Source: Posidonia oceanica (taxonomy: Eukaryota > Streptophyta > Magnoliopsida > Alismatales > Posidoniaceae). Taken from it: a stretch of 64,000 bases of DNA. A program made the translations under genes and the position numbers. This document shows, one piece after another, positions 27,434 through 64,000 of the stretch. The stretch spans positions 6,138,001 to 6,202,000 of the forward strand of contig JAZBRS010000044.1 of NCBI GenBank assembly GCA_037176725.1, written 5' to 3'. How positions within the stretch are numbered: position 1 is the first letter of the stretch; each line of letters opens with the position of its first letter. The notes under the pieces are model-generated. The model saw only the letters and a program-made list of their open reading frames with translations. It searched no databases and was not told the origin of the DNA.

Positions 27434-27454
27434 AGATTCTTTTTACAGCAGCTT

Positions 27455-32131: not shown

Positions 32132-32283
32132 TTTTTGACATTAACAAGCAACGATTTTTCTATTTTGCGTCGTTATATACCAACAATTCATCTCCACTTC
32201 ATTTTTACACAATTTTAAAGATTTCTACGAAAATTAAAAAAGTTTTCGAGATTTCTTCCATTTTATCGAATAACAATAAGATT
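32132..32283. repeat. End of a 540-bp subunit, left edge of array
   Basis: TTTTTGACATTAACAAGCAA through TTATCGAATAACAATAAG. It matches the last part of the third subunit in other units (e.g. 35767-35912), cut on its left by LINE-A. Confidence 0.85.
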
Positions 32284-35200: not shown

Positions 35201-35912
35201 ATTTTCAAGTTCTCTTACTTGTTTTTCGACAATTACATACAACGATTTATCTATTTTGCGTTATTATATACCAACTACACATCTCTACATGAGTTTTACA
35301 TAATTTATAAGATGTCTACGAAAATTACAAAATCTTTTGTGATTTCTTCCATTTTATCGAAAAGCAGTAGGTGTCAGTTAACAGTTTTTTGTTACTTTTC
35401 AAAAGATATATTGTTTTCATATTTGATTGTTGTTTCTAATACATTACGACCTACATTATCTGTGAATCATGTTTTGGTGACATTCGATGTCATTCAAACA
35501 AAATACTAGATGATAGATGATTTTCGAGTTGACAAAAAAGTTTGACTTTTTATTAAGATTGAGTTTTATTAAACATTTACGTGTCATGTATATTAGATGA
35601 ATTTTTTCATAGGTGTATCACATTTTCCACCTCTATATTTCTATTATCGATATTTCCTTGAAGTTGATACACTTTTGTCAGCTCATACTCAATTTCTAAA
35701 GGCTTACTACTTTTCGAACATTAAAAAAGTTTGACTTTTTTATTTTTGAATTCTCCAATTGCTTTCTTGACATTAACAAACAACGATTTTCCTATTTTGC
35801 CTTGTTTTATACCAACAACACTTCTCTACTTTATTTTTACACAATTTTGAAGATTTCTACGAAAATAACAAAAGTTTTCGAGATTTCTTCCATTTTATTG
35901 ATTAACAATAAG
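32284..35912. repeat. Array unit 1
   Basis: Cassette about 32284-34435, then subunits starting near 34436, 34985 and 35516. GTTTGAC landmarks at 34458, 34998 and 35539 give a 540-bp period. A perfect inverted repeat CTCGACAG-n5-CTGTCGAG lies near 32898, and CTCGACGTTGTTTGTCGAG near 34112. Confidence 0.88.
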
Positions 35913-38900: not shown

Positions 38901-39540
38901 ACCAACTACACATCTCTACTTGAGTTTTAGGCAATTTATAAGATTTCTACGAAAATTACAAAATCTTTTGAGATTTCTTCCTTTTTATCGAAAAGCAGTA
39001 GTTTAAGTTAACAGTATTTTGTTACTTTTCAAAAAATATTTTGTTTTCACATTTGATTGTTGTTTTTGATACATTACAACCTATATTATCTGTGAATCAT
39101 GTTTTGGTGACATTCGTTGTCATTCAAATAAAATACTTGATGATAGATGGTTTTCGATTTGACAAAATAGTTTGAACTTTTATTAAGATAGAGTTTTGTT
39201 AAACATTTACATGTCATGTATGTTAGATGAATTTTTTCATAGGTGTATTATATTTTCCACCTCTATATTTCTACTATCGATATTTCCTTGAATTCGATAC
39301 ACTTTTGTCAGCTCAAACACAATTTCTAATGGCTTACTAGTTTTCGTACTTTAAAAAATTTTGACTTTTTATTTTTGAATTCTCCAATTATTTTTTTGAC
39401 ATTAACAAACAACGACTTTTCTATTTTGCATTGTTATATACCAACAACACTTCTCCATATCATTTTTACACAATTTTGATGATTTCTATGAAAATTACAA
39501 AAGTTTTCGAGATTTTTTCCATTTTATCGATTAACTATAA
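35913..39540. repeat. Array unit 2
   Basis: Cassette about 35913-38062 and three subunits to 39540. In the short hairpin near 37744 both arms differ from other units (TTGAC...GTCAA) but still pair. Confidence 0.88.
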
Positions 39541-42056: not shown

Positions 42057-45000
42057 TTCAGGCGACACTATGAGGTGGGACTCGCCGACGTGCTTCACTG
42101 GTGAACTTTCTAGGTGTTTCTGGCGCCCATGAGACGCCAGGGGCGCCTAGGAGGCACCCAATATGTTTGGGTAGGGACAGATTTTTGTGACAACCAATCT
42201 ATTAGTGGTTGCTCTTTTGTCGTTGAAGTATAGAATCTGATTTTTGGTTTTAAGGTGAGTTTTGTAGAATTAAAATGAATACTTGTCCTTTAAGAGATTA
42301 GAATTTTGAAAACACATTAGGGCAAGATAGAATCAAGTCAATCATTAGGAATGAGTTTGGAATTGCATAAAATGGAATTGCAAGACCCCACTTGAGCTAG
42401 GGTTGGATACTAAAAGACTAAATAACCTAGAAATGCTAAGATTTCCCCTAATTGGCCTAGATGGACATTAAGGAACGTAATAATTTATGATTGGATCTTG
42501 GCACTAGAACTTAGTGCTCTGGGTACCGTTGGTGTGGGTGTGTGGTCTCGTAAGTACGTTGGGACTTCGGGACCAGTGCTTTGCTTCAGTGTGGTGCTGG
42601 ATGGGAAATGATATACATAGAAGGTGTTTTTGTTCCCTATTGTTTGGTGTTTTTAATGTGGTTCTGGGCTCGACAGTGGAGCTGTCGAGGCTGTGTTTTG
42701 AGCTATGATTTCAGCTCGTGGTTTTGTGCTATGATTGGTACTGTGTTTCGAGGTATTTTGAGTTGTCTTTTAAGGATTTTGAAATAATTTTCGAAAAGAG
42801 TTTTGGAAAGAAAATGCAGAGGTTTGGCAAAGGTTTTTGAAATAGTTTTTTGGTGTTTTCTGTGTGTGGCGGACCAAGATACTGGAGGGGCGTGACGATG
42901 GGATTAGGGGATGTGACGACATTCCAATTTCGCCGGGCGCATTGCCTAGGTTGAGGTCCTGAGACAAAGAGGCTGGGGTAATTGTTTGTCAGATCTCGGA
43001 GGTATGATGCTCCTTGATTGTCGTTCACGAGGCCGAGGCTGAGGTCCCTAGGTTGGGGGTACCGACTAGACTTGGAGGTATGACACTCCGCTTGTTCCGG
43101 GTGCCGATGTCCCAGGGTACTGACTGTACATAGTGTAACATGGCAGCGGACATAGGGGGTCTGAGTCCTCTGAGTAGCTGGACATGATACCCTAGTTAGT
43201 ACGGGTACCGAGATTGCTTCGTGTTGACATAGCCTGGGGTTGAGGAGCCCCAGGGGTTTGGAGCACTGAGTTTGGGCGCTTAAAGGGCATACGCTGTGGT
43301 GTTCCACAGAGAGATAGGACCTATAGAGGCTTGTTGGCCAAGACGGTTCACTCCCCCACAGGGTAGTCGACTGTAGCAATGCAGGGACACCGTGGTAGCG
43401 CCCCGATGTATTGCTTGTGGCTAGGTGTCTCGCTTGGGTCCGAGTGACGACACTTTGTTTGCTTGTATGTGGTTAGCTATGCTTGTGGCCGCGCCTGTGG
43501 GGCGTAGGTCTTACGCTAATGAGACGCATTGGTTTGGCTGAGCAGTGTCTTAGCGCGGGCTTCGTGTTTTGGTGTTTGTTGTATTGTATGTGTGTGTATT
43601 GAATGCTATTGAGAGTATTCAGACACGGTTGGTTGTCTAGTCCGCACCATGAGTGTGATGGACCAAACCGTGTGTTTTGTGGCTTGATTTGGCTAGTGTG
43701 GTCATTTCAAGTGTGCATAAAGATTTTGAAAAGAGCATGCATATGGTTTTAAAATGAAAAGAGAAAAGATGATTTCAAGTACATGTTTTTAGTGGTTTAC
43801 TTTGTGAGCAATGAGGTATGCCCTGTTGTGGCATCCGGAAGTGATGCCTGTGTTTGTTGCTTGTGGCGTAGTTACGCCTGTTACCTCGACGTTGTTTGTC
43901 GAGCTGTTTGGGTGTGTAGGTGGGGTGTGTGCTGGGTGACCTATTGAGTGGTCGCTATCGTGTGTTTTGTGTTTGTTTTTGGCAAGTGCAGGATAGGAGA
44001 GGAGTCACACTACCACACATCAAGTGTTCTGGGTAAGTGAGTTGTTTAAGTTTATTTTATTTCTGGTTTATAGTATTTGTGAGAATTTAGTTCTGTAGTT
44101 CATAAATGCTAATAAGATTTTTTTAAAAAAAAAACAAATGTTAGCTAGGTTGAGAGGTAACGACATTGGGGTCGTTAGATACACGGTTTTTGATTTGACA
44201 AAAAAGTTTGACTTTTTTTTAAGGTAGAGTTTTATTAAACATTTACGTGTCATTTATAATAGATGAATTTTTTCATAAGTGTATCATATTTTCCACCTCT
44301 ATATTGCTATTATCGATATTTTGTTGAATTCGATACACTTTTGTCAGCTTATACTCAATTTGTAAAGGCTTATTGCTTTTCGAACTTTGAAAAAGGTTGA
44401 CTTTTTTATTTTTGAATTCTCCATTTACTTTTTTGACATTAAGAAACAACGATTTATCTATTTTGCAATGTTATGTACCAACAACACTTCTCTACTTCAT
44501 TTTTACACAATTTTGAAGATTTCTACGAAAATAACAAAAGTTTTCGAGATTTTTCCCATTTTATCGATTAACAATAAGTGTTTGTATATTTTTTTTTGTA
44601 ATATTTTAAAATATCATTGGTTTCCTTAATTGATTGTTATTTTTGTATGTTTTGACCTACAATCTCAATAGATCATATTTTGGTAACTTTTATTGTCATT
44701 CTGATTAAATTCAAGAGGATAAACCGGTTGAGATGGAAGAGATAGTTTTGACTTTTTGTTAAGTTAGAGTTTTATTAAATATTTTTTTATAATTTCTAGA
44801 ATAAGTATTTTTTTGATAGTGCATCGTAATTTCCATCTATAAATATCAATCATCGGTATTTCCTCGAATTTGATACACTTCTGACAAATTATATTCAATT
44901 TTTAAAGACACATTGCTTTAGAAGATTTAAAAAAGTTTGACTTTTTTTATTTTTGAGTTCACTTACTTGTTTTCTGACAATTACATGTAACGATTTATCT

Positions 45001-45657
45001 ATTTTGCGTTATTATATACCAACTACACATCTCTACTTGAGTTTTAGGCAATTTATAAGATTTCTACGAAAATTACAAAATCTTTTGAGATTTCTTCCTT
45101 TTTATCGAAAAACAGTAGGTGTCAGTTAACAGTTTTTTGTTACTTTTCAAAAAATATATTGTTTTCATATTTGATTGTTGTTTTTGATACATTACGACCT
45201 ATATTATCTGTGAATCATGTTTTGGTGACATTCGATATCATTCAAATAAAATACTTGTTGATAGACGGTTTTCGATTTAACAAAAAAGTTTGACTTTTTG
45301 TTAAGATAGAGTTTTATTAAACACTTACGTGTCATGTGTATTAGATGAATTTTTTCATAAGTGTATCATATTTTCCACCTCTATTTTTATTATCGATATT
45401 TCCTTGAATTCGATATACTTTTGTCAGCTCATACTCAATTTCTAAAGGCTTACTAGTTTTCCAACTTTAAAAAAGTTTGACTTTTTTATTTTTGAATTCT
45501 CCAATTACTTTTTTGACATTAACAAACAACGATTTTTTTATTTTGCATTGTTATATACCAAAAACATTTCTCTACTTCATTTTTACACAATCTTGAAGAT
45601 TTATACGAAAATTACAAAAGTTTTCGAGATTTCTTCCATTTTATCGATTAACAATAA
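42057..45657. repeat. Array unit 4
   Basis: Cassette about 42057-44175 and three subunits to 45657 (GTTTGAC landmarks near 44206, 44750 and 45289). The first subunit (44176-44720) is strikingly close to the first subunit of unit 1 (34436-34980), closer than to that of unit 2, by eye. Confidence 0.88.
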
Positions 45658-48521
45658 GATTCTGGAGACACTTGGTGGCAGGATTTGTCGACACAGTTCA
45701 CTGGCGAACTTTCCAGGTGTTTCTGGCACCCATGGGACGCCAGTGGCGCCCAAAAGGTGTCCATTATGTTTGGGTTGGGCCTGATTTTGGTGATAACCAA
45801 TGTATTAGAGGTTGCTCTTTTGTTGTTGAAGTTTAAAATATTATTTTTGATTTTATGGTGAGTTTTGTAGAATTAAAATGAATCCTTGTCCTTTAGGAGA
45901 TTAGAATTTTATAATCACATTAGGGCATGATGAGAATCAAGCCAATCATTTGGGATGTGTTAGGGATTGCAAAAAATGGAATAGCAATACCCCACTTGAG
46001 CAAGGGTTGGATACTAAAAGACTAAAAAACCTAGAAATGCTATGGTTTTCCATAATTGGTCTAGATGGACATTAGGGAACAAAATAATTTTGGATTGGAT
46101 CTTGGCACCAGAACTTAGTGTTCTGGGTGCCGTTGGTGTGGGTGTGTGGTCTCGTAAGTACGTTGGGACTTCGGGACCAGTGCTTTCCTTCTGTGTGGTG
46201 CCGAATTGGTAAATGACATACCCAGAAGGTGCTTTTGTTCCCTGTTGTGTGGTGTTTTGTAATGTGGTTCTGGGCTCGATAGTGGAGCTGTCGAGGTTGT
46301 GTTTTGAGCTGTGATTTCAACTCCTGGTTTTGTGCTGTGCTTGGTACTGTGTTTTTACGTATTTTGAGTTGTCATTTAAGGATTTCGAAAAGAGTTTTGA
46401 AAAGAAAATGCAGGGGTTTGGCAAAGATTTTTGAAAGATAATGGAGGGGCATGTCGACGAGATCAGGGGATGTGATGACATTCCTGTTTGCCAGGTGCGT
46501 TGCCTAGGTTGCGGTCTTGAGACCAAGAGGCTGAGGTAAGTATCCGTCGGATCTTGGAGGTACGATACTCCTTGATTATTGTTCACGATGTCGAGGCTAA
46601 GGTCCGCGGGTTGAGGGTACCGACTGGACTTGGAGGTATGACACTCCGCTAGTTCAGGATGCGGAGGACCAAGGGTACTGACTGTACATAGTGTATCGTG
46701 GCAGCGAACACAGGGGGTATGAGACCTCTGAGTAGCTGGACGTGATACCCTAGTTAGTACGGGTACCGAGACTGCTTGGTGTGGACTGAGCCTGGGGGTG
46801 AGGAGCCCCAGGGGTTTGGAGCACTGAGTTAGGACGCTTAGAGGATGTACCCTATGGTGTCCTACTGAGAGACAGGACCTGTTGAGGCTTGTTGGCCGGG
46901 ATGGTTCACTCCCCCATAGGGTGGTCAACCGTAGCTATGCAGGGACACTTTGGTAGCGCCTCGGTGGACTGCTTGGGGCTAGGTGTCTTGCTTGGGCCCG
47001 AGTGACGACACTTTGTTTGCTTGTGTGTGGTTAGCTGTGCTTATGGCCGCGTTTGTGAGGCATAAGTCTTGCGCTAGTGAGGCGCATTGGTTTGGCTGAG
47101 CAGTGTCTCAGCACTGGCTTTGTGTTTTGGTGTTTGTTATGTGTGTGTGTGTGTGTGTGTTGAATGCTATTGAGGGTATTCATACACGGTTGGTTGTCTA
47201 GTCCGCACTAGGAGTGTGATGGACCAGACTGTGTGTTTTGAGGTTTGATTTGGCTAGTGTGGTCATTTCAAGTGTGCATAATGATTTTGAAAAGAGCATG
47301 TATATGGTTTTGAAATGAAAAGAGAAAAGATGATTTCAAATGCCTGTTTTTAGTGGTTTGCCTTGTAGGCAATGAGGTATGCCCTATTGTGGCATCTAGA
47401 AGTGATGGCGGTGTTTGTTGCTTGTTGCGTTGTTACGCCTGTTTCGTCGACGTTGTTTGTCAAGCTGTTTGCGTGCGTAGATGGGGTGTGTGCTGCGTGA
47501 CCTATTGAGTGGTCGCTCACGTGTGTTTTGCGTTTGTTTTTGGCAGGTGGAGGATAGGAGTGGGAGTTGCTAGTGCATATAGGAGAGGAGTTACACTGCC
47601 ACACATCAATGGTTCTGGGTAAGTGAGTTGTTTAAGTTTATTTTATTTCTGCTTTATAGTATTTGTGAGAATTTAGTTCTGTAGTTCATGAATGCTAATA
47701 AGATTTTAAAAAAAGAAAATGTTAGCTAGGTTGAGAGGTAACGACATTGGGGTCGTTACATAGACGGTTTTCGATTTGACAAAAATGTTTGACTTTTTTT
47801 TAAGATAGAGTTTTATTAAACGTTTACATGTAATTTTTAATAGATGAATTTTTTCATAGGTGTATCATATTTTCCACCTCTATATTGGTATTATCAATAT
47901 TTCCATGAATTCGAAACACTTTTGTCAGCTTATACTCAATTTGTAAAGGCTTACTGGTTTTCGAACTTTAAAAAAGTTAGAATTTTTTTTGTTGAATTCT
48001 CCAATTACTTTTTTGACAATAACAAGAAAATATTTATCTATTTTGCAATGTTATGTACCTACAACACTTCTCTACTTCATTTTTACACAATTTTGTGGAT
48101 TTCTATGAAAATTACAAAAGTTTTCGAGATTTCTCCCATTTTATCGATTAACTATATGTGTTTGTATACGATTTTTTGTAATATTGATTGTTATTTTTGT
48201 ACGTTTTGACCTACAATCTCAATGGATCATATTTTGGTAACTTTTATTGTCATTCTAATAAAATTCGAGAGGATAAATGGGTTTAGATGGAAGAGATAAT
48301 TTAACTTTTTGTTAAGTTAGAGTTTTATTAAATATTTTTTTATAATTTCTAGTATATGTATTTTTTTGATAGTGCATCGTAATTTCCACCTATAAATATC
48401 AATCATCGGTATTTCCTCGAATTCGATACACTTTTGACAAATTTTACTCAATTTTTTAAGGCACATTGCTTTAGAAGATTTAAAAAAGTTTGACTTTTTT
48501 ATTTTTGAGTTCTCTTACTTG
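45658..48521. repeat. Array unit 5, truncated by LINE-B
   Basis: Cassette about 45658-47760, then one full subunit and part of a second, ending at GAGTTCTCTTACTTG where the LINE-B poly(T) starts. About 60 bp are missing from the cassette near 46435, where TTTTTGAAAGATAATGGAGG skips sequence present in other units. The cassette right end reads GGGGTCGTTACA. Confidence 0.88.
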
Positions 48522-48961: not shown

Positions 48962-50539
48962 TGTAGATGTGGATTTGGGGGATGTTTATAAAGATGACTG
49001 CGCTTCCATGTACGTTGTCAACTTTGTTGTGATCGCCACTTATCAATGGACGAACAAGGTGCCTGGGGAGATGATGATGATGTGGGTAGTCGGCTCACTG
49101 GATCGACGGCTAGGTGTTGTCCAGCAGCTTCCTCGTATTACATGAGCGGATTCCTTTTCCTTCAAAAAACAAGTAATAGAAGATCTGGATGAGTTCTTGT
49201 GTAGTAAATCGATCAAATAAATAAGAAATAACATGAATAAATGCAACTAATACTAACCGGGGGTTGGTCCCCGCATGCATATGCCATGAATCTAATCTAA
49301 AGAATGCAATAATGAAAATAAAGAGAATGGAAGATGATACTCCCTTCACCCTTGTGCTGTATGTAGTGAGATGAGGAAGCGGAGGTACGGTTGGAGCTCC
49401 AGGAATCCTTGAGATCTCTGGGATTCAAGGTGGGATATGGTGATCTAGGGTTTCTAGATTGAAGGTGGAGGCTAGGGTTTTTCTCTTAGAAGATACTCTT
49501 TTCCTTAAACCCTAAAATTGGCCACTTTTCTCAAATGAATTCGCCACCCCGGGCACTGACACATGGAGCCTTTTTATAGGTTCGTGGGACACGGGTGGCT
49601 TAGACCTAAGAAGGTTCTAGAAGTTTCTAGAAGGGAACTGATATTTAGGACTAGTCGCTGGCGACTGGCGTAAATATCTCTCGAAAAGATCATGGAAATG
49701 CCGGGGAAACACCACGTGACTAGGTCAGCAGGGAGTCCACGTCAGCTAGTCGCCTGTAAGATAGGCGTCTAACTGTAGCACCAATCCAGCAACTAAAGAT
49801 TTGTTTCAGATTTCTAGGAGATAAATCCTGGATTGGTTTCTGAATTTTAGGAAGATACATCACTGATTGAAAAACGTGTTTTAGAAAGATCTAGGTCTTA
49901 ATTTGGAAGCCACCTAGGATTTTCTAGATTTATTCCTTAATTGATTATAAGATTTTTATATGATATATCATATATTAAATACTTGAAGACCATGAAAATA
50001 TCGATAATGTAGAAAAAGCATTATAATAATTTATAAAGCCCCCCATGTATTATATTAATGTCCAGGATATTAATTATCAAGCTAGAGAGAGAGAAAATGC
50101 TAGTCGCCTATCTTAGAGGCGCCTACACATTCCAGTCGTCCCCTCTAAAAGGCGCGTGGATGTGTCGCCGCTATGGGAGGCAACTAGCTAGGTCTTTTGC
50201 ATTTTTAACCCTATCTTTTAAGTTAATCCAGAGAAACATGATAAAAGCCCGAAAAACTTCAGAAATCTCATGAAATCGTAAAAACATCTTCTTTAACTCA
50301 AATCTGCCACTGATCTGAGTAGGAAAAAGGGTGCTTAAGGTACTCGGACTTGCCACGAGTTTGAGTGCGCTAGCTATGCCACAGCTAACAGCCTTGAGTC
50401 AAATAAAATCAAGCGATGCTTTAAACAAATCACGGAAAATCTGGAAATGTGTTATTAAGCCTTGGTTGTGTGATATGGGGCGCCTAGCTGGTTCCTATCC
50501 TCTAAGAACTCTTAGAAATGCGAAAATGGGATATCTACA
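48962..50539 (-). repeat. 3' LTR of element 2 (1578 bp)
   Basis: On the minus strand it begins TGTAGATATCCC next to the polypurine tract and ends CCACATCTACA where LINE-B resumes. TGTAGAT and ATCTACA form a perfect 7-bp terminal inverted repeat, which supports both ends. A TATA box lies at 49578-49571, so U3 would be roughly 50539-49580. The partner LTR is off window. Several GTCGCC/GGCGAC hairpin motifs lie inside (49653, 49749, 50101). Confidence 0.82.
49571..49578 (-). promoter_or_regulatory. Candidate TATA box of element 2 LTR promoter
   Basis: TATAAAAA on the minus strand within CCTATAAAAAGGCTCC, well placed inside the LTR and flanked by G+C-rich sequence as plant TATA boxes often are. 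No start site can be read from sequence. Confidence 0.55.
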
Positions 50540-50555
50540 GATGCCCCTCCTTGGA
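50540..50555 (-). other. Polypurine tract, element 2
   Basis: Minus strand CCAAGGAGGGGCATC abuts TGTAGAT of the LTR. The core AAGGAGGGGCATC is identical to that of element 1 at 19770-19782. Confidence 0.82.
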
Positions 50556-51614
50556 GTTGATCTTGGAACAAATCAGTTCCAAGGTAAGAACGATGTCCTA
50601 ATGAGCATTTGCTAAAAAGGGGAGCTCTGTCTTAAACAATTTGCCGGTTGGGTAGCCAAAGGAAAGATAAAAGGAGGTTTAAACTGCCATCATATTGGGG
50701 ACTCAAGCATAGAGGGGTGATGTCGGATTCGGAACATGTGTCGTAGCCGATGTCAAGACCAGGTCAACCATGTAAGGGTGCTTCAACGGGGCAGGAACTA
50801 AGGAGGAAATCGTGAGGTTTTATCTCGACACGATCGAAAAGGAGTTTGGCATCTTGTTTGAGACTTCACTCGGATTGGAATTGATAAAAGGATAGGTAGG
50901 AACTAGGTTGGCTCTAGGAGAATCACATGTCCTAAGGGTTTCTATCACTCTTGAAGGTCATATTGCTCCGTCCGTGCTCCGCTTCCAAGGATATGAGAAA
51001 ATGCATGGATGCATGATTCAAGCAAACAATGATAATGCAAGGTCAACATACGATGCAATGAATGGTCCTTATGCTAGGTTAGGCCGGCGGGGTACGGTTG
51101 GTCCCAAATCATATGGACATATGCAAAATGAATGAATGCACTTTGTTGTGGTCAAGTGTTTTCCATCCTCGAGTGTGACCGGTACTCTTAGGAAAGGACT
51201 GTCGTCCCACAGCTCGATTTGGCAAGTAAAGAGGCTCTATGTGTAGAGAACCGGGTGAGGGAGTGAACCCTTTGCCTGCCAAAACAATGTTTCATCTTTA
51301 GTCGTAGTAGTGGTGTCAGTGGACACGGTGTGAGCTTTGGGGCAAGGGCTCATCCCTTGTCTTCACTTTTTAGTTCGCAGTTGGGCAGAATCATCCTTTA
51401 TGAAGGGGGCAAAGGATCATCTGTCCTAATGTTCCAGTCGCCGCTGAGCTTGGCGCCTGGAATAGTCGCCTGTTGTAGGGGCGACGCGCAATCTTCTGGC
51501 TAATTTGTCTCGAAATCCGATTTATCCTCCGTTTTTCCCGATACGAGGTGATAAAGGGAGGCCGTGCTTATCTTCCAGAGGTTATTCTACAGAATTAATC
51601 TCCTCCCTTTGACC
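50556..51614. other. Non-coding stretch between polypurine tract and antisense gene A
   Basis: No gene seen. Two GTCGCC/GGCG hairpins lie at 51433-51461 and 51463-51486. The last 60 bp may be the 5' leader of gene A on the plus strand. Confidence 0.55.
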
Positions 51615-52967
51615 ATGAAGCTTCCTTCTTTCTCTTCTTCAACCTTCACCGTGGAAAGGGTGGTTGATATCCCCAACCACTTGATGCAAGCCATTCATGG
51701 AGATCAGGTATGCTCTCTCCTTCTCTTCTTTGTCCTTGTACGCTTTGCTTGTTTGTGGTCTTGTCCCTGAGTGTTTACTTGTGATAGGTTGTAGTAAACC
51801 TTACCGGATGTCCGAATTTCCATAATTCGTTCCGGTACTCTCTACCTTGGGTATCTAGCATGATTGGCCGAGTGGAAAGCAATAGGCATCTCTTTGAATC
51901 CAGTGGTTTTGACAAACTTTTGGATTTGATGCGTGCCCCTCTACCTTGGCCCTTGTTGCATGCAATGATGGCCTTTTGGAAGGGCTCCTCTAACACCTTC
52001 AACTTTCCTCATGGGGAGACATTGATTTCTTGTGAGGAGGCTACTTCTTTACTTGGACTTGCGGCAGAATCTACTGAAACATCGGACGATCGCTTCGCCA
52101 TATCTGTTGAGACAGTAGATTCCAGGAAGATAGGCCGGTATTTAGTGAAGGATCAAGATGCTAGCAAGGCATTGGTGCATTCAGGGAGGCTGTTTCTTCA
52201 GGGCTTGTGGGAGATACTTAGCACCCGACAACTTGCTAAAAACAAACTAAAGATGTGTTTGTTTGTAGCAATTGGTGGCCTTGCACTGTTCGTTGATGAA
52301 AATTTCACATTGGATCTTCATCATGTGGACCTTCTCATGCACGTAGCGGCTTGGCCAGACTTGTATCTGACTCCTGCTGTGCTGGCATACACCATGGAGG
52401 GGCTCTCAAGTGCATCTTGCTCGGGGAAGTTCTTTGGCTCTCCCATACTACTGCATAGATGGTTCATGTCCCATTGTCGGTGTTATGCTGATTTTGCCGG
52501 GCTGCCTTTTTATGACTGCATATTCCGCCTTGACTCTTTGTCCTTGTAGGATTTTGACTTTGTGCCAAAGCTAACTGAGGCTCAGAAGGCACGAGTGATG
52601 AATGCAGTTCATAGTTATCTCAAACTGGTCTTGGTGGGAGCCAGGGCCTTCGTGTTGTATCCGATTCAGCGTTGCCCACGCCTGTTAAACCAAGAGCTCT
52701 CTGTTAAGCCTGGTTCAGTGCTATCTCCCCCAATCCATGCCCGTAGAGAGGATGGCTCTGGAGTACATCGTCCTCTGGGTCCACATCGGCAGGCGAGTGT
52801 CCCTGAGTGCGCCTCATCTGTCTGAAGCTTCTCGGGAGTCACAGGAGTCAAGGTACCTGAAGTGGTACGCTCGACTTCGCCCCACTCCCCAGAAGTACAC
52901 CGAAGATAGGCTGGAGTTTTTGAAGATGCTTGGCCTCAGTCACATGAGCATGGCAATGTATGGTTGA
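51615..52967 (+). pseudogene. Antisense gene A of element 2: PMD-like protein with one intron
   Basis: Opposite in direction to pol. Exon 1 is 51615-51707 (ATG, 31 codons). The 80-bp intron 51708-51787 has GTATGC at its donor and TGATAG at its acceptor. Exon 2 starts at 51788, in phase 0. It continues 253 codons to a TAG at 52547, then stays meaningful in the same frame to about 52730 and shifts frame for the last part (to TGA at 52965). LLHAMMAFWKGSSNTFNFPH followed by CEEATSLLGL matches the N-terminal signature of the plant mobile domain, and ESRYLKWYARL near the end resembles the PMD C-terminal region. Function unknown; PMDs are linked to transposons and to MAIN/MAIL1-type silencing factors. 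A captured host or MULE gene is the alternative reading. Confidence 0.68.
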
Positions 52968-53582
52968 GTTTATTTTTATAGTGTATTGGTTATGAGTTAA
53001 TAATGATATTTTTATTTTAAGTTTGGTTAAATTGGTTGTGCTTACTGTTGTGTTGGTGGGTTATTAGTGTCTGAATTAATGGTGGATAATTTGTTTTAAA
53101 TAAATAAGCAGAAGGAAAGAAAGAAAAAAAGGTCTATCCGTTCTAGTCGCCGCTATAAGGGGCATCTAGCTCAGAGGAGGTTCGAATGAGGTGGGAAGGT
53201 TATTTTACAGTTATTATTATTATTGCTAATTTTGGATGGTTGTCGCCGCTATTCACGGCGGCAGATGCTGACATGGCCTCCACCAGGGCGGTTCAAACTG
53301 AGGCGGGAAAGTTAGCGCCTAAGGAAACCGAAGGGTTAGTCGCCGCAAAGCACAGTGTCTAAAGTGGTCGCTGCTATATTTGGCGACCAAGGCACGAGTT
53401 CAGTAACAAAACCGAACCGTTGCCCCCCTTTTGGCCTCAAACTCTTCTTCCTCCCTCTCTCTTCTCCATTCAGTGCCCGCATCCCTCCGCCTTCCTCTCC
53501 GGCGTCTCGACAGTGGTCTTCGGCATGGTGCGGCGGTCTCCGGCATGGTGGGCAGTGCTCTTGTTCTTCCTCCACATCCCCG
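52968..53582 (+). other. Spacer before antisense gene B, hairpin-rich, probable leader
   Basis: AT-rich to about 53130, then G+C-rich with several GTCGCC-type inverted repeats (53144-53170, 53242, 53338, 53366-53390) and a CT-rich leader-like stretch (53440-53475) before the ATG at 53583. No other gene seen. Confidence 0.5.
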
Positions 53583-56500
53583 ATGGTTAGCGGCGGCAAT
53601 GAGGGCGTCGCAGACGGTGGCAGCTCAGACTGCGGCAGCGGCTCATCTCGTCAGAGAAGGAGGTATTCTCCTCCTCTCCTCCTTGCTTCCTTTGCCCTTG
53701 TGTGGTGTGCCCGACGGTAGATGGCCGGAGAGGGCGGATGGCCGTGATAGTGGACTGGGATGGGTTTTTGTGAATGATTTTTGTTGGTTTTGAATGAAAA
53801 TTTTTTTTTTTTTGTTTTCTTTTTTTTTGTGAATGACAAATGAATCAGGGGATGAATGAATTTCTTGTGAATGATATGAATGAGTGGAATGAATTTTTGT
53901 TGTGAATGAATGATAAACGATATTTTTGTGTTTGAGTTTTATTGAATGAAGGAGAATATTTCTGTGAATTTTTCTTGCAGGAAATGAAAATTTATTGTTT
54001 AAATTTGTGGGGAGGTTATGTCAAATTTTTTCCAGAAATTAGGAGATTTATTTTATTTATTAATGATGGAATATATGGAATTTATGGGATAATGGGTTAA
54101 AACTTGAGGGACTTTTATGCACATTTTTTATTATTTCTGTATTTTTGTGAATTTGTTTGGAGATGGACAGAAATAATTGATTTTTTTTTAGAATATTTTT
54201 GCTAATAATGCCTAAGTAAATAATGTTGTGAAATTTTGGAGAATAGAATTCTCTCTTGAATTTTAAAAGAGAGAATTTAATTGTTTAATGAAAAAGATGC
54301 TTAATGGATTAATTTAGTGAATTAAAATTAGGAAAGTTTAAAAAGAAAACTTGAATTATTAATGATTATCAGGGTAAATTCCTTAGAGAATAATAACTTA
54401 TTAATTCATGAATTTAAGATTAGAGGGCAAGTTCGCTTAAGGAAAATTGATTATTAGGATAGGTTGGTGGATTAATTGATGCAAGTTAGATAGTCAAATT
54501 CTTAAGGTGGACTGGTGAAGAAGGATTTTCTCAGTGTGGTATTTTCCGTCTTGGTAGGGCCATAAAATGTGTTTTAAATATTTGTAAAGTTTAATTAATT
54601 TCATTCAGTATTGTGTTTAAATGTCGTATGTTAATTAAAAACCTGAGGTGATTGTACTTCTTAAATGGTTTACGTGTTTTTTAAAAGAGTTAGATATTTT
54701 AAGTGATATTTGAGATAATTTTTAATGTTGTGAGTATTTGTTAGATAATTAAAATGGGTTTATATGTTTAATTAAAAGAGTTTTAAATATTTGAAGTGAT
54801 TAATGGTTAGGTGTTTGATTAATGTTTTTGAAGTGATTAATTAATGTTTGAAAAGATTAATTAATGTTTGAGATGATTAATTAATGTTTGAAATGGTTAA
54901 TTAACGTTTGGAATGATTAATTAAGGTTTGAAATGGTTAATTAATGTTTGGAATGACTAATATTCGAGGTGGTTAATGTTTGAGATGATTTAATGTTTTG
55001 GAATGATCAAAGACCAATTAATGTTTAACTTGGCATGGACTGACCAAACTCTACTTGTGCTACTGTTCCAGGGTCTTCGATGAGAAGGTTCAGACTGGGA
55101 GGGACGAGGCCGGTCCTTCTATTGTAGGGGCAAGCTTCTCTCGTCCTTGCAAGCTTCGAACGAGGCGTCTACATGCACCGTCTCCTGCTAGGACGGAGAC
55201 GAGTGGCAGTGACAACGGCAGTCTTGGTCTGGGCGAGGTCCCTCGTTATCCTCCTCCTAGGAGAGCTAGGACAGCAGTTGAGCTTGCGGAGCTAGGCCAG
55301 GTGAGATGTGTTTTAGTCTTTTATTAAGTTATTTTGTTTGTTTAAGAAGTTATTAATGTTATTTTTTGGATTTTCTATTTAGATGCCAATGCCTAGCCGG
55401 GCTCGCTCTAGATGGGAGGACCTTCATGAGACGTACGTCCGTCTTCCAGACTTTCAGCGGGAGAAACTGGCTCGGATGGGCTTTGGCCACTTTCTAGAGA
55501 TTGTGCCTTTTGAGATTCATCTAGGATTACTAGTCTCTTTTGCTGAGCGGTTCCACAGTGCTTCTGGCAGCTTCATCCTCCGTGTGGATGAGATGATGAT
55601 CACCCTGGAGGATGTGGTTAGGTTGGTAGGCCTGAGGGTAGATGGCGAGCCCGTGGTAGCAATGTGGCAGCACTGTTATGGTGCTGAGCTGGAGTCTTGC
55701 TACGGCGTGCAACCTCCGTGCTTCGGCCGTTACCACACTCGTGTCAACATCAGGTGGCTGAAGGAGCGTCTCGATGACCTCCTACTTGCTAACGTGGCGG
55801 CTCCAGGTGTAGCTGATCAGCAGCTGCGTGTCTTCCTCTCCATCCTGTTCCACCAGCTGTTCTTCGGCACCTCCTCTCAGATGCTTCATGCCGGTTTTGC
55901 CCCTCTCCTTCTGGATATGGAGAGGATTGGTATGTACTCCGGGGGCTCGGCCGTGTTGGCCTACCTTGTCTCTCACTTGGAGGCATTTTCAGCAGGACAA
56001 ACCCGCTCTCTCTCTGGCTACTTGCCCCTTTTCCAGGTTTGTGCTTTAATTTACTGTCTATCTTTTCTGTTTATTTGCCTATTTCTGACTTGAAACTGCT
56101 TCTTTATGTGACAGACTTGGATCTTTGAGCATTTTCTGTACCTGAGGCCTGGCATTCCTGGGAGTGGTCCCGTTGAGTTCCCTCGGGCTTAACGGTGGAT
56201 GGATGTGCAGCTGGCTCCTGAGAGACTCCGACCTGTTAGGCACTTAGGCTGCTTTCTGTTGGAGGTCCTCCCTGAGGAGTGGGTAAGTTATTGTACTTAG
56301 TCTTTTCTTTTCTGTACAGTTTCTTGCTTGTATTTTGACTAAGTTGTGCTATAGGTTGTCTAGAGACCTTATGCCAACGATGAGCATGCTGCTGAGGAGC
56401 CCATTGTACGTGGTTCCCACCTATTTCTTCCAGAGTGCTAGCTCTTCAGCCTCTTCTTGTCCCGCTTTAGTCAGGTGGGCCGTGTTTTGAGGTAGTTCGG

Positions 56501-57934
56501 CCTCTGACAGCTCATCCCGAGGCTTGGTCCTGCAGCTCGTTCCCTTGGGTCGTCCAAAGGGGGTCAGCCTGACACACCTCAGCTGTTTGCCACTTAGCTT
56601 GAGGATTGGTGCTTCGGCAGTACTACTCCTCCTTCTGACGGCTCGGCAGAGACCAAGGCGGCATGGAGGACTTGGTTCGACACTACCTTTGCTCAGTTGA
56701 TAGTTTTCCATCGCTCTCTCTTCTACGGTGGATCCAACGTGCCGATGGGCATTGGCTTTCGTGCGAGCAGCAGTGTTAGTTCACTACGGCAGGAGCTGGC
56801 GGTTGCCCATGGTCATATCCAGAAGCTGGTAAGTAATTTCTTTTGAGCTTTCCTTTTATTTAATGCTCCTTTACTTATATGTCTTTTTGCTTGCACAGAT
56901 GACTGCTTCTGAGGGTATGGCGGAGGCAGTTAGGACTCAGTAGCAGCAGCAGCATACTTCTAGGGTTGAGGAGCTAGTACAGGAGAGAGATGAGCTATTG
57001 TCCTGACTAGTACGAGTGAGCTTTGCCCCTTTCTTTTACTTATCTGCCCCTGTTCTTGCTATTTAACTGATACTGTCTGCTTTGGTGTAGGCTGAGGGTG
57101 CCTCGACTAGTGTAGAGCCTCCTCCTACTGCTGCTACGGAGCCGGCTGCTTCTCGCTTCGGGGGCATGCTCGCTGACGAAGCTCGAGCTCACGAATCAGA
57201 GGTACCTCTGTCTCTTTTCTAGCTTTAAGTATATGTCTTGTTAGCTTATTTAATTCTTCCTTGCAGATCCAAGCTATGATGGACATGATTCACACCCCTC
57301 CTTCCACTGGGCCCACGTAGAGTCTGCTTGATGACGCTTTGGGGCGTGCCGATAAGCTGCTAGGGCGCCTTAGTCAGCTGGAGCGAGAGCGTGAGAGCCG
57401 CTTTCAGGAGTTAGAGGCTCGTGTTGCCGCATCTGAGATGGAGACAGCCAGGGCACGTCTTGAGGTAGACTCCACAAGAAGGGTAACTCCTCTTCTACTT
57501 GAGCACATTTGATTACTGCTAGCCTTCCTGCTTAATTATTCTAACTCTGGGACTGCTGTCTTTTTTAACTGCAGTTGAGCGTTGGTCGCAGCCAGCGGAT
57601 ACAGGAGTTGGAGGCACAGTTGGCGCAGACTCAGGCAACAGTTGTGGCGGTTCTTCCTGATGCTGACATTTCTGGTCTGGTTGCTGCAGCCCCGTCAGTG
57701 TCAGCGCACTCCAGAGTTCTGTCAGCTGAGCAGATTGCGAGAGCGCGGTCCTCCCCTCATCTTGGGCTACTTCGTTCTATACTGAGGGGGTCTTGGGAGA
57801 GGAGCCAGAGTGGGGCGACATCTTTAGTTGCACAACCTACGCCGGGGCCTCCAGATGGTGACATGAGGGCAGCGGTGAGTCTGGTCGCTGAGCTTGTTCT
57901 TCTTTTTTGTTTCTAGCAGAATATGTCAATGTAA
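53583..57934 (+). pseudogene. Antisense gene B of element 2: multi-exon PMD plus coiled-coil protein
   Basis: Proposed exons: 53583-53662, 55072-55300, 55383-56036, 56115-56282, 56355-56828, 56899-57015, 57091-57201, 57267-57482, 57575-57874, and possibly 57917-57934. Every intron is GT...AG. Apart from intron 1 (1409 bp, splits an Arg codon), all are 65-92 bp and lie in phase 0, with every internal exon a multiple of three. Exon 3 encodes a clear plant mobile domain (FHSASGSFILRVDEMMITLE followed by DVVRLVGL). Exons 5-9 encode a Gln/Glu-rich heptad-like coiled coil (QLERERESRFQELEARV). Nine in-frame stops (56190; 56361, 56439, 56493, 56505 and one more in exon 5; 56941; 57004; 57318) break it; each is one C-to-T change from CAG, CGA or CAA. 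The final 42-bp intron is doubtfully short; reading on gives a stop at 57914. Function unknown. Confidence 0.75.
54780..55025. repeat. 21-bp minisatellite in intron 1 of gene B
   Basis: About eight to ten imperfect copies of ATTAATTAATGTTTGAAATG plus one base, period 21 bp, decaying towards the acceptor at 55071. Confidence 0.85.
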
Positions 57935-59266: not shown

Positions 59267-60680
59267 TCAAGGATAGTACCTTTCCAGGTGCATTGCATTC
59301 CAAGGGTCAGGAAGATCTGTCCCGTTCTGGGACAACCGATAGGCATTCCCCGGATATGCAGCAACCACTATATAGGGTCCTTCCCAATTTGGCTTTAACT
59401 TTCCCTTAAGGTGGGGCTTATTGTAAGGCAACACCTCTTTGAGCACTAGATCACCAATTTTAAACTTGCGTTCGATTACTTCCTTTTGATAAGCCTTAGT
59501 TAACCTTTGTTGGTAAACACACGTATGCTCGGCGGCTGCTAGCCGTTTCTCATCAAGAAGTTCTAGGTGAAAGAGTAAGGTCTGCCTCTTTTCTTCGGCG
59601 GACATTCCTCTATCAATTTGAACTCTTAATGAAGGGATCAAGATCTCATATGGGACTACCGCCTCCATTCCAAAGGCTAAGGCATAGAGTGTTTGACCCA
59701 TTGCCGTCCTTACGGTGGTGCGGTATGCCCATAATGCACTTACGAGCTTATCTGACCAATCTGATCCCTTAGCGTCTTCTACCATTTTCTTGATAATTTT
59801 TATTAAGGTTTTATTAGTAGCTTCTGCCTGTCCATTCCCTTGCGGGTAATACGGGGAGGAGTGGTGTAGAGTGATACCGAATTTCTGGCAAAACCGCTTA
59901 AACTCCTCCGAGATGAAGATTGGCCCGTTGTCTGCTACTAAGGCTTTAGGCACCCCAAACCTTGCAATGATATTGCATTGTACAAATTTGCACAGGGTCG
60001 TGGCCTTGATGTTTACGAACGCTTCTGCTTCTGCCCATTTGGTGAAGAACTCCATCACTGTAAGGATAAAGGTGTTGCCCTTGCCTTGATGGATGGGTCC
60101 TACCACATCGAAGGCCCACATGGAGAAGGGCCATGGTGCTGACAAAGCGTGAAGTGTTGAAGCTGGAGCATGAATCTTGATGGCATGTAGTTGGTAGCTT
60201 TTGCACCGCTTGACTTTGCTTGCACAGTCAGTTTCCTTGGTAGGCCAATAATATCCCCTCTTGATGATCACTTTAGCCATGAACTGGGAGTTGATGTGGC
60301 CCCCGCAGACTCCCTCATGTGTTTCCTTGAGGATTTCAGCTGATTCTGAAGCGTCCACACATCGGAGTTCAATCCCTAGGGGTGTCCTCCAGAAGAGTGT
60401 GTTGGCTCTGATGTAGTACCTTGTAGCCATCCTCCTCAGTGCCTCTCGATCCCTGGGAGTTGCGTAAGTCGGGAAGGTGCCATCCTGTACATAGTTCCAT
60501 ATGTCATAGTACCACGGGTTGCCATCATTGTTTATCTCTGTATCTCCTTGATAACAGACCGCTACGTGCATCATGTTTTCCTGGTTTGGTTCCTCTCTGG
60601 ATTCCTGTACCCATTCTACGACAGACTCCACTATTGGTGCGCTGATTTTCCACACCATGACGGATTGCTCATCTGAATTG
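59267..60680 (-). pseudogene. Integrase, element 2 (zinc finger damaged)
   Basis: The frame is open from 60907 to 59267 (546 codons including the end of RNase H). Zinc finger: HEGVCGGH, then KRCKSYQLH near 60205, where Tyr replaces the last Cys of C-x2-C (TAC for TGC, G-to-A on this strand). Core: D in FDVVGPI (about 60105), D in VADNGPIF (59935), E in NGQAEATNK (59830), then LVSALWAYRTTVRT and FGMEAVVPYEI. The C-terminal domain is intact to NWEGPYIVV and the end LERYYP. The reading frame is otherwise whole, but the metal-binding site is not, so activity is doubtful. No chromodomain is seen. Confidence 0.9.
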
Positions 60681-61090
60681 AAGGGGAACAAGGACGCCAA
60701 TGAGGCTAGTGAATCGGCCAGGATGTTGTTGCTTCTGAGCGTATGCACATATACTACTCTGTCAAATTTCTTCAATAAAGCTATGGCTAAATTGCGGTAT
60801 CCCTGCAGCTTTGGTGAGAGGGTCTTATATTTGTTGAGGACTTGTCGGATGATGGGCTGTGAGTCCCCAGTTACCTTTAGCCTTCTTGCCCCTAGATCGA
60901 GAGCCATTCGTACCCCTCGGATGAGTGCCTCATATTCTGCAATATTATTACTTGCTGAAAAGAGTAGCTGGGCTGCGGTAGGGAGAACAATACCCTCTAG
61001 AGTGAGGAGTGTTGCCCCTATCCTAAAGCCCTACGAGTTCAGTGCTCCATCGAAATGGAGAGTTCATTCTCTGACAAGTGGCATGACACT
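60681..61090 (-). pseudogene. Archaeal-type second RNase H, element 2
   Basis: Acidic residues seen in LHFDGA (about 61050), IAEYEA (60935), TGDSQPII (60865) and NILADSLA (60725), so the catalytic set is complete. TGA at 61066-61064 and TAG near 61033 break the frame. The TGA stands where Trp is usual (TGG to TGA is a G-to-A change on this strand). Confidence 0.83.
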
Positions 61091-62854
61091 ACTGATCGCC
61101 AGTATTTCCTCGTCTGGAAAGTCTGTTGATACTGGCTGATATTCTGACACAAGTAGTCTGGCAAGTTGATCCGCGATAGCCTGCCCCTTGACCGCCTTCT
61201 GAGTGACAAACTGCAGGTCAAATTCAATGAGGAGCATTTGCCATTGTGCTAGCCTTCTAGACAGTGTAGGTTTCTTGAACATGTACTTGATAGGGTCCAT
61301 CTTGGCTACATAGTAGACTTTGTGTGCCAGAAAGTAGTGTCTGAGCTTTTGTGAGGCCCACACTAAGGCTAGGCAGTGTCTCTCGATCTAGGAGTACTTT
61401 CTCTCATACTCAATGAATGTTCTGCTGAGTTAATAAACCGCTTTCTCCTTCCTCCCAGCTTCATCATGTTGTGCTAGGACGACTCCCATCGAGTTATCAG
61501 TGATGGCCAAGTAAAGTAACAATGGCCTCTTAGGGACTAGAGCAGTCAATACTGGAGGATTGAGGAGGTAGAGCTTTAGCTCATCAAAAGCCTTTTGACA
61601 GGTATGATCCCACTTGAACTCTGTACTGCCTTTTAAAAGCTCATAAAATGGTCTACACTTCTCCGCATGCTGAGAGATGAATCTGCGAATGAACTATAGT
61701 CTCCCTATGAGTCCTCTGAGTTCCTTGATATTCTTTGGCGGCAGCAGGGCCGTTATGGCTTTAGCCTTTGTGGGATCTACTTTGATGCCCCTTCTACTCA
61801 CTATGAGGCTGAGTAGCTTTCAGGCAGTGACCCCGAAGACACACTTCTTGGGGTTCATCTTGAGGTTGTACTGGTCTACTCTCTGGAGTACTCTTTCTAG
61901 CGCTTCAAAGTGTCCCTCTCTTGTCTTTGATTTTACTAACAGGTTATCCACATAGCATTCCATGCAATCGTGCCTCATGTCGTGGAAGATTGCCATCATA
62001 GCCCTCTGATAGGTGGCTCCAGCATTCTTTAGTACAAACGGCATAACTATATTGCAATAGGTCCCCCATGGAGTGGTAAACGAGGTCTTCTCCTAATCTT
62101 CCTCTGCCAGTTTGATCTGGTTGTAACCTAAGAAACCATCCATGAACAAGAACATTTCATAGCCTGCAGTGTTGTCTATGAGGATGTCTATATGTGGGAG
62201 AGGGAAATCGTCTTTTGGGCATGCTTCATTGAGGTTCCTGTAGTCAATGCACACGCGCACTTTGCCATCTTTCTTCATCACTAGAACTATGTTGGCAATC
62301 CACTCTGGATACACCACAACTCTGATGAACTTTGCCTTATGCGGTTTGTCTATCTCTTCTTTGACTTTTAAGGCAAGGTTTGGACGTAGATGCCAGAGCT
62401 TCTGCTTCGCTGTCTTTGCACCTGGCTTGAGAGGGAGTCTGTGCTCAACCAGCAGTGATTCAAGCCCGGGCATTTCTCCGTAGGAGAAAGCCAGTACCTT
62501 CGCATATCTTCTGAGTAGCTTTGTCATTCTGGTTCGTTCATCTAAGTTGAGGGCAGAGCTTATCCGAACTGGTCTCGGATCATCTTCAATCCCCAGATTG
62601 ATTTCTTTTGTTTCTTTAGTGGTAGCCTTGGTCTGCTCATCATATTTTTTCATCATTTCTTCAAAGATGGCAGGGTCTACAGATTCTTCTTCATCTGGGT
62701 CCTCTTCTGTATCCACCAGCTCGTAGACTTCATAGTTTCTAGTGTTCTTGCCGGTTGTGTTCGACACTTCTTCGACTAGAAAGATGGCATGTGACGTGGC
62801 TAGCTCCTGTGGTAGCGCCGTGGTGTAATGACATACTTGGACTGTCTGGGTCAC
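61091..62854 (-). pseudogene. Reverse transcriptase plus gypsy RNase H, element 2 (active site altered)
   Basis: Pre-RT (YAKVLAFSYGEMPGLE, about 62480), then RT motifs VYPEWIANIVLVMKKDGKVR, VCIDYRNLNEACPKDDFPLP and FMDGFLGYNQI. TAG at 62095-62093, then MPFVLKNAGATYQRAM in the same frame. The catalytic motif near 61950 is YVDN, not YVDD (GAT-AAC), so one of the two essential aspartates is gone. More stops follow (about 61820, 61695, 61430, 61390). A degenerate first RNase H ends with WASQKLRHYFLAHKV and FVTQKAVKGQAIADQLA. Inactive. Confidence 0.88.
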
Positions 62855-64000
62855 TGGCCCCTTCCTGTTCTAAGTTGTACACTCAGCAGATGGATTAGAT
62901 ACCTTTTGTGAGGACATGGTGGTAGTTATGCCATCCCTGCCACACCCTCAACTACTTTCCCCACTATTATTAGCTAAACTAGGAAGTAAATTACTGGAAA
63001 GTAAATTGTGCGAAAATAAAATGCAGGAATTAAAAGTAGGAAAGAAATTGTTCACAAGGCTAGGGGGATTGCCCCTAGGTTTGCTTCCATGGCGGAAGCG
63101 GCGCGCCATTGGGCGTTAGTCTGTGGCCCCGGCCCCTTCTTGCTTAGAGGGGCAAGGCCGTAGGTCACTGAAGAGGCTGGTGAGTTCACAGAGGGGGTCA
63201 GTGTCCTCTATTTCAGCGTCTTTGGAGGAGATTTCAGAGGAGTCAGTTGCTGAGACGTCCAGAGGCAGGGAAATTTTTGGAGAAGAGGGGAGGACGATGC
63301 CGAGGACCTCTTTTGTGCAGGGGGAAGAGGTTGGCGCTTTTGTCTCAGGATCTGTCAGGATGTCGAGGATGAACGTGTCAGGAACTTCTTCAGAGTGAGG
63401 GGAAGAAGTTGGTGCTGCTGTTGTTGAATCTGCTGGGATGTTGGGAATTGTATCTGCCTCTCGTTTGTCGTGTATCTGTAACCCAACTGATATAAAATGA
63501 TTTGATAAGGACCATGCCAAAGGCTTGCTCAGACTTGAATGCCCGAGGTACCCTAACCCTGTGCTACCACACTCTTTGGGGGTTCCAAGCGCATCTGTCA
63601 TTCCTTGCTCTTGGCGACCAAGTCCCTTCACAGGGATGTACCCTATTTTGAGAAGGATCTCCCATGGCCTCTTCATGTGATCCAAGAAGTGGTACTGGTC
63701 CATATCAATGCTCCGAGGGGTGAAAATCTATTTTACATTGTTTACAGCCTTGGCTGCAGAGCCCTGATTGATGGTGCCGGTGTGGTGGTTGGGATTGTTA
63801 CTAGATTTGCCTCTGCTTCCATTGGCTCATCTCCCAGCACTTTGATTATCTTCCCTTGGTGAGGGAATTTCATACATTGATGGCGTGGGGAGGTGACTGT
63901 CTTGATTTCTTTGATCCATTGGCGCTCTAGAATGAGTCGATATGAGATTGGTGCATCGACTATTATTAATTCTGTATCTGTTTGAAGGGGGCCAATGGTG
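62855..64000 (-). pseudogene. End of protease, G-patch-like motif and linker, element 2 (partial)
   Basis: At the right edge the minus strand reads as the C-terminal part of an aspartic protease (SYRLILERQWIKEIKTV where L-L-G-R-P-W-L is usual, about 63930), then a frame change. An open frame follows at 63703-63116 with the G-patch-like GYIPVKGLGRQEQGM and GLGYLGH, then a Ser/Thr/Pro-rich acidic linker. 62855-63115 links to RT and is G+C-mixed with stops. The protease active site and all of gag lie outside the window. Confidence 0.75.

Follow-up and report, generated by a model that had tools for sequence, protein, structure and literature searches.

Predicted spliced antisense plant mobile domain genes and a shared inverted repeat in an Ogre/Tat-type retrotransposon of Posidonia oceanica

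Two antisense genes between the integrase and the 3′ long terminal repeat

We analysed a stretch of 64,000 nucleotides (hereafter, the window) from the 2.96-Gb assembly of the seagrass Posidonia oceanica (GCA_037176725.1, contig JAZBRS010000044.1, positions 6,138,001 to 6,202,000 of the forward strand). The window contains most of a large retrotransposon, which we call element 2. Between the integrase and the 3′ long terminal repeat (LTR) of this element, on the strand opposite to pol, lie two predicted genes, which we call A and B. Gene B has nine exons and encodes a plant mobile domain (PMD), and very probably it is an integral part of the element whose spliced reading frame has been under selection. 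The relevant features of element 2 are as follows.

48962–50539, minus strand: 3′ LTR, with ends TGTAGAT...ATCTACA and the U3 end at 50539
50540–50556, minus strand: polypurine tract adjoining the 3′ LTR, recognized from the sequence
51615–52966, plus strand: gene A, PMD-like, with two exons (51615–51707 and 51788–52966), antisense to pol, between gene B and the polypurine tract
53583–57916, plus strand: gene B, a nine-exon PMD gene antisense to pol, with nine internal stops in the window copy and a conserved frame end near 57890
53583–53662, 55072–55300, 55383–56036, 56115–56282, 56355–56828, 56899–57015, 57091–57201, 57267–57482 and 57575–(57916), plus strand: exons 1 to 9 of gene B
53663–55071, plus strand: intron 1 of gene B, 1409 nt, containing a 20-bp AT-rich tandem repeat
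55383–56828, plus strand: exons 3–5 of gene B, corresponding to the plant mobile domain (PF10536)
59267–61030, minus strand: additional RNase H (RVT_3), zinc-binding domain and integrase core, identified with Pfam
61031–64000, minus strand: part covering reverse transcriptase, RNase H and protease, interrupted by several stops

All eight introns of gene B begin with GT and end with AG. The first junction splits an Arg codon (AG before the intron, G after it), and the other seven are in phase 0. Apart from the first intron, the introns are short (65–92 nt). They are also rich in T (40–57%, versus 15–30% in exons), and reading through any of the eight meets at least one stop. Over its 797 codons the spliced frame contains 10 stops, the terminal one included, whereas the two remaining forward frames have 33 and 51.

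A first-pass annotation of the window had proposed nine or ten exons with GT-AG introns, located between the integrase and the polypurine tract and LTR on the strand opposite to pol. The location and the nine exons stand, as do the Arg codon restored at the first junction and phase 0 at the others. A tenth exon (following a 42-nt intron, with a stop at 57934) was rejected, given that its GT donor is present in only two of ten aligned copies, window included. A small frameshift private to the window displaces the 3′ end of that proposed exon, and the nine other aligned rows have a stop near window position 57890. The exon–intron structure had also been described as intact, but the window copy is broken by nine in-frame stops besides the terminal one. 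Finally, only a single antisense gene had been recognized; gene A was overlooked.

The identification of gene B as a PMD gene, likewise proposed earlier, is borne out by the Pfam profile PF10536. This profile matches exon 3 alone with 81.7 bits and the joined exons with 117.4 bits over profile positions 1–295, above the curated cut-off of 34.9. A comparison of exon 3 with solved structures gave no match, and no related loci were confirmed in viral contigs. In gene A, the start ATG and the GT and AG of the intron are present in all 11 aligned copies, window included. The window copy of gene A has one stop and one frameshift; among five other copies read, the longer part of the gene is stop-free up to its end in one.

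Element 2 spans positions 48962 to about 71499 (about 22.5 kb), running past the end of the window. Its 5′ partner LTR lies on the same contig (L009:5913-7499, equivalent to C35:6207913-6209499) and is 94.2% identical to the 3′ LTR. The pair differs at 79 of 1576 sites (62 transitions and 17 transversions), a Kimura two-parameter distance of 0.052. At an assumed rate of 1.3e-8, the element would be about 2 million years old. The flanking sequences are AGAAC and AACCA, and no clean 5-bp target duplication was seen.

Two traits of Ogre/Tat elements are present. An additional RNase H (RVT_3, residues 4–111) is followed in one frame by the zinc-binding domain and integrase core, and a reverse-strand extra open reading frame (ORF) with a PMD lies in the 3′ part. 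An additional RNase H before the integrase is given for Ogre and Retand elements (PMC6317226). By its domains and their order, element 2 is a decayed copy of a large Ogre/Tat-type Ty3/gypsy family. Its pol is broken, with 7 stops in the 613 codons of 62869–61031 and none inside the 587-codon RNase H–integrase frame.

Other parts of the element and its surroundings are noted briefly. A weak G-patch match, just under the cut-off, occurs at 63116–63727. In the gag-protease part, two tandem protease-like stretches with DTG- or DTE-like motifs were seen by eye (L060 in the element sense; L009:3-1025). Frames that by eye resemble a non-LTR retrotransposon occupy 26198–31691 on the minus strand, and related sequence appears to lie on both flanks of element 2. 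Positions 32000–48500 consist of a satellite array with units of about 540 bp and a higher-order repeat of about 3.63 kb.

Family copies and purifying selection

Sequences related to element 2 are numerous in the genome. Using a 540-bp LTR query, the best 40 of at least 6006 first-look candidates were all full or nearly full matches, and the same was true for the best 40 of at least 4305 candidates with an exon 8–9 query and the best 40 of at least 3689 with an integrase query. Of 30 LTR loci, 13 (window included) continue into the 3′ internal region of the element, 11 of them over about 1.5 kb that includes the start of gene A. The remaining 17, one of which is the window’s own 5′ LTR, do not continue into this region. 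Among the matches listed, nine pairs of exon 8–9 and integrase matches (window included) lie within 30 kb of each other, all on opposite strands and with gaps of 2042–2148 bp, and 31 of the 40 exon 8–9 matches have no integrase match. Five pairs among these matches, again counting the window, have an LTR upstream within 40 kb, with gaps of 6438–6843 bp.

Matches to a 7.1-kb block around the antisense genes end at window positions 52281 (L046), 55517 (L047), 53221 (L048) and 56958 (L050), and L049 has about 2.9 kb of extra sequence within intron 1. Such broken-up blocks fit an old, much-invaded family. We take the antisense block to be a part of the family and not an insertion in the window copy. 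The first-pass annotation had named copies lacking the block, with a clean scar, as the sign of a separate insertion. None were seen in the part of the family that was examined, with which the paired matches are consistent; the 17 LTR loci mentioned above lay outside that part. We also found no convincing terminal inverted repeats flanking the block.

The exon–intron structure of gene B is conserved among copies. We aligned ten copies over exons 2–9 and left out two (L055 and L056) for their non-homologous 5′ parts, leaving eight copies including the window. In these eight, 114 of 120 splice dinucleotides over exons 2–9 are intact, and each of the six losses is confined to one copy. Four further copies, which cover exons 3–5 only, keep 19 of 24 when alignment gaps are counted as losses, and the exon 1 donor is present in five of five copies. 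Exon lengths are equal or differ by multiples of three, except for private frameshifts; intron lengths vary freely. Clean loss of an intron was not seen among the aligned copies. One of the excluded copies, L056, has a deletion that places the start of gene A near the exon 6–7 region of gene B.

To evaluate selection, we reassigned changes randomly to sites of the same trinucleotide context and compared the observed ratio of altering to silent changes (N/S) with the resulting expectation. Changes present in at least two copies were called shared and those in one copy private, and the last 15 codons of gene B were left out. The 182 shared changes in gene B comprise 96 silent and 86 altering ones, an N/S of 0.90 versus 1.98 (1.49–2.71) expected by context, and none of 1000 shuffles reached the observed value. 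By contrast, the 394 private changes are neutral (2.03 versus 2.15; 303 of 1000 shuffles). When gene B is read in the wrong frames, shared changes are not depleted for alterations (2.27 versus 1.69, and 3.20 versus 2.19). Taken by part, the depletion of shared changes is clearest in exons 3–5, which correspond to the PMD (N/S 0.74 versus 1.90), and weaker in exons 6–9 (1.18 versus 2.00; 46 of 1000 shuffles).

As a yardstick we used the additional RNase H and integrase in nine true copies, whose shared changes give an N/S of 0.95 versus 1.76 (0 of 1000 shuffles). This analysis replaced a first integrase test with near-neutral ratios, in which five of eight rows lacked a full integrase (three had no match and two only the last part). 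For the longer part of gene A in six copies, the shared N/S is 0.65 versus 1.87 (2 of 1000 shuffles). The depletion of shared changes indicates that, during the multiplication of the family, the protein encoded by the spliced frame was about as necessary as the integrase. Neutral decay after insertion is clean for gene B only. Given the selection on it, gene B is more than the passenger unit suggested earlier.

Some family members have kept gene B but lack most of pol, as seen in L061 and L065, which pass directly from gag-protease-side sequence (near window positions 62953–62965) into the end of the integrase (59485–59486). Reverse transcriptase, RNase H and most of the integrase are therefore gone, and gag-protease sequence and gene B are kept. 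The deletion falls at a short similarity (L061:1540-1570 and L065:1430-1450). A 311-bp query spanning the junction has full or nearly full matches at 36 of its best 40 places, its source included, and the other four match from position 153 on. Six of the 36 places, compared by hand, lie 1.3–1.5 kb beyond a match to gene B exons 8–9 (on C22, C25, C30, C46, C56 and C60).

In exons 3–5 of seven copies called pol-less, one of which (L052) was classed from L060 with its junction unseen, the shared N/S is 0.94 versus 1.78 (0 of 2000 shuffles) and the private N/S is 1.58 versus 1.95 (90 of 2000). The gene B tree does not unite these copies in a single clade, so the depletion may be inherited from full elements, and it is no proof of selection after the loss of pol.

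An inverted repeat common to the LTR and the regions upstream of genes A and B

A 23-bp inverted repeat, AGTCGCC-N9-GGCGNCT, occurs at eleven sites of element 2, in three groups that carry no strand assignment.

49652–50187: five sites in the LTR (near 49653, 49748, 50102, 50134 and 50163), with spacing 9 in 53 of 55 site-copies
51436–51486: two sites about 130–180 bp upstream of the gene A ATG, with spacing 9 in 22 of 22 site-copies
53145–53390: four sites upstream of gene B (53145, 53241, 53338 and 53366), the second and fourth of them weak, with spacing 9 in 19 of 20 site-copies

Counting the window, the LTR and gene A sites were read in eleven copies and the gene B sites in five; L048 was left out of the latter, as it diverges after window position 53221. 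Overall, the spacing is 9 in 94 of 97 site-copies, with ties resolved in favour of 9. In the window’s LTR, the first site has no spacer and the fourth has a spacing of 10. Three sites (LTR-5, B-2 and B-4) are weak, with 2–4 mismatches in the copies read. Several other copies fit the repeat better than the window does, and some have no mismatches when the fifth letter of the right arm is taken as N. Many of the mismatches are, by eye, C-to-T or G-to-A changes at the CpG of a half-site, as would be expected if the sites were methylated.

We searched for pairs of the half-sites AGTCGCC and GGCGACT at distances of 0–14 with at most three mismatches, and derived expectations from dinucleotide shuffles. 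The LTR has 7 pairs versus 0.26 expected (five of the seven being the sites described), the region upstream of gene A has 2 versus 0.07 and that upstream of gene B has 4 versus 0.21. The fourth gene B site was caught at a spacer of 12, and its spacer-9 register has other mismatches. Elsewhere in element 2, pairs number 0 versus 1.06 expected in pol, 0 versus 0.31 in gene A and 1 versus 1.06 in gene B. A TATA-like stretch was seen by eye on the minus strand near 49571–49581, such that the LTR sites would sit upstream of the start of LTR transcription. We interpret the repeat as the putative site of a single dimeric factor that would serve the LTR promoter and the two antisense promoters alike.

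Interpretation, alternatives and relation to known systems

We propose that genes A and B constitute a second transcription programme of the element, carried by the strand that does not encode gag-pol. Genomic RNA transcribed from the LTR would hold both genes in antisense, and their introns would survive reverse transcription because, in this orientation, they do not present splice sites to the genomic RNA. The first-pass annotation had accounted for the introns by orientation in the same way, and we retain this explanation. Genes A and B would each use a promoter of their own on the other strand, and their transcripts, spliced by the host, would yield PMD proteins. The shared repeat would be bound by one dimeric regulator, most simply the product of A or B, which would act on the LTR and on its own promoters through activation or relief from silencing.

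An element with selected, spliced antisense PMD genes and regulation through a shared repeat is our best overall explanation, with a probability of roughly 0.6. The narrower proposal that the element itself encodes the regulator is tentative, and we hold it rather unlikely.

Element 1, another element in the window (LTRs 95% alike), has a PMD-like frame downstream of its integrase, in the sense orientation (16574–17722, plus strand). It runs in a single frame interrupted by two stops, shows no trace of introns, and scores 23 bits over 16847–17311, below the cut-off. This contrast in orientation is the one predicted by the idea that introns are retained only in antisense.

Several observations weigh against our interpretation. 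The copies studied are the best matches to the window and not a random sample, and five of six 7.1-kb blocks are interrupted or cut short, with only L045 colinear to the end. No open gene B exists among the eight aligned copies, the best of which has two internal stops. Moreover, among the 182 sites of gene B with shared variation, 10 involve a change to a stop, which implies that recurrent deamination or replication of broken copies occurs. The shared N/S of exon 2 (1.33 versus 2.00) is not significant, and neither is any depletion in the first 114 codons of gene A in eleven copies. Private changes are somewhat depleted both in the longer part of gene A (1.50 versus 2.24; 16 of 1000 shuffles) and in the integrase yardstick (1.78 versus 2.19; 36 of 1000), so the contrast between shared and private changes is sharp only in gene B. 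Gene A scores 28.3 bits against the PMD profile (E-value 1.3e-6), below the Pfam cut-off of 34.9, and can be called PMD-like but not a member of the family.

As to the repeat, its pattern was chosen after viewing the sequence, for which reason the copies are the better check, and the rule for ties in the spacing tally favours the pattern. Element 1 has a mild excess of half-site pairs (15 versus 8.25, a count reached by 3 of 60 shuffles). When no more than two mismatches are allowed, the window holds 11 pairs; the LTR and the two upstream regions account for 7 of these, and the other 4 fall outside them. Also, DNA binding is not known for PMD proteins.

Genes A and B could instead be captured host PMD genes that are carried as neutral passengers. 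Host genes with a PMD do exist (PMC5418596), and this genome has, at another place, a long PMD frame free of interruptions. However, gene B is only 26.8% identical to that frame, the shared changes preserve the protein, and the block occupies the same place in distant copies, so we regard this as very unlikely. Even less credible is a separate MULE-like DNA transposon with a PMD, nested in the retrotransposon, although PMD frames beside a MULE transposase do occur in the same genome (L011). Reading the frames of the block, not every one of which was scanned for families, revealed no transposase, and a single one of the 25 listed inverted pairs encloses both genes (18 nt, 83%). In addition, the block is in the same place in paired copies, and gene B is only about 26–29% identical to other PMD frames of the genome. 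L011 is one unit of a series at about 0.4–1.9 Mb of G000:C62, where many PMD matches lie on one strand, often about 25.4 kb apart, and most are stop-free. Roles of antisense RNA have been discussed for other elements (PMC7264820), and the useful product might be such an RNA, acting through double-stranded RNA or interference with the genomic RNA, and not a protein. Selection on amino acids in one frame only makes this improbable as the sole function, but it could be an added role.

The repeat itself might be recognized by something other than an element protein. A host factor is a substantial possibility, if short of an even chance; the proteins of A and B would then act elsewhere, for example in silencing complexes of the MAIN/MAIL1/PP7L kind. 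The half-site AGNCGCC resembles the GCC-box of ERF factors (AGCCGCC), but pairs of sites held at a spacing of 9 are not known as a usual ERF arrangement. PMD proteins of the host do act in a silencing complex (PMC8616336), as this alternative would have it. It is also conceivable, if quite unlikely, that the repeat works as an RNA hairpin with a 7-bp stem and a 9-nt loop. The sites are inverted repeats, and B-4 differs on both arms with complementarity kept. However, in LTR-2, LTR-3, LTR-4, A-1, B-1, B-2 and B-3, the right arm does not usually match the left arm at its fifth letter, as expected for two degenerate half-sites and not for a stem.

An antisense PMD gene in a Tat/Ogre element is already known. 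Among Ogre elements, 57% have a PMD extra ORF, and extra ORFs in reverse orientation in the 3′ part form a recognized class (PMC6317226). Those PMD-bearing elements resemble element 2 in having this ORF and the additional RNase H before the integrase, and the largest elements in their group of lineages are about 24 kb. The survey took open frames of at least 250 codons, by which a nine-exon gene would be missed or seen by its largest exon only. The splicing that it describes joins gag-protease to the reverse transcriptase–RNase H–integrase part (PMC6317226), unlike the splicing within an antisense gene proposed here. Two PMD clades found only in Gypsy elements, PMD-A1 and PMD-A2, have been reported (PMC5418596); the predicted products of A and B are like them in being Gypsy-encoded PMD proteins.

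The aORF-3R genes of maize Grande (gene23), rice RIRE2 and Silene Retand likewise lie between pol and the 3′ LTR on the opposite strand, and the Grande antisense ORF is reported to have its own promoter (PMC7264820). Their products are described as having no clear similarity to other proteins, and a search for spliced and antisense transcripts is urged (PMC7264820). By contrast with our element, the accessible portion of that review mentions no multi-exon aORF, second gene or repeat shared with the LTR. By analogy of function only, the VANDAL/VANC system resembles ours in pairing an element-encoded protein with a short motif that has many copies in the non-coding regions of the element (PMC5735166). 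It differs in being a DNA transposon, with another protein family and a 9-bp motif in arrays of the same orientation, and binding was shown in that system (PMC5735166), whereas for our repeat it is proposed.

Among the titles and beginnings of abstracts listed, mostly outside subscription papers, we found no multi-exon antisense gene in a plant LTR element and no repeat shared between an LTR and antisense promoters; spliced antisense genes may stand in the extra-ORF work of Steinbauerova and colleagues or in the Grande gene23 paper. What we would call new is the nine-exon structure together with the selection measured on it, the presence of two such genes side by side, the spaced repeat that recurs in the LTR and upstream of each, and the existence of carriers without pol.

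The idea that PMD proteins of elements counter silencing is already published (PMC8616336). A more speculative extension, which we consider improbable as it stands, is a self-recognizing circuit, in which the PMD proteins would bind the CpG-bearing repeat, both that of the LTR and that of their own promoters, and relieve all three transcription units of silencing, those of the pol-less subfamily included. This would be a system of the VANC kind that evolved independently in retrotransposons, and a possible origin of host PMD silencing proteins.

Our best explanation, an element with selected and spliced antisense PMD genes, means that a gene with several introns can be inherited and selected as part of an element that is copied through RNA, and that it is kept because it is antisense. 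Surveys based on long open frames would overlook such genes or catch only their largest exon. The shared repeat would offer a concrete target for studying the role of Gypsy-encoded PMD proteins, and thus the origin of MAIN/MAIL1-type silencing.

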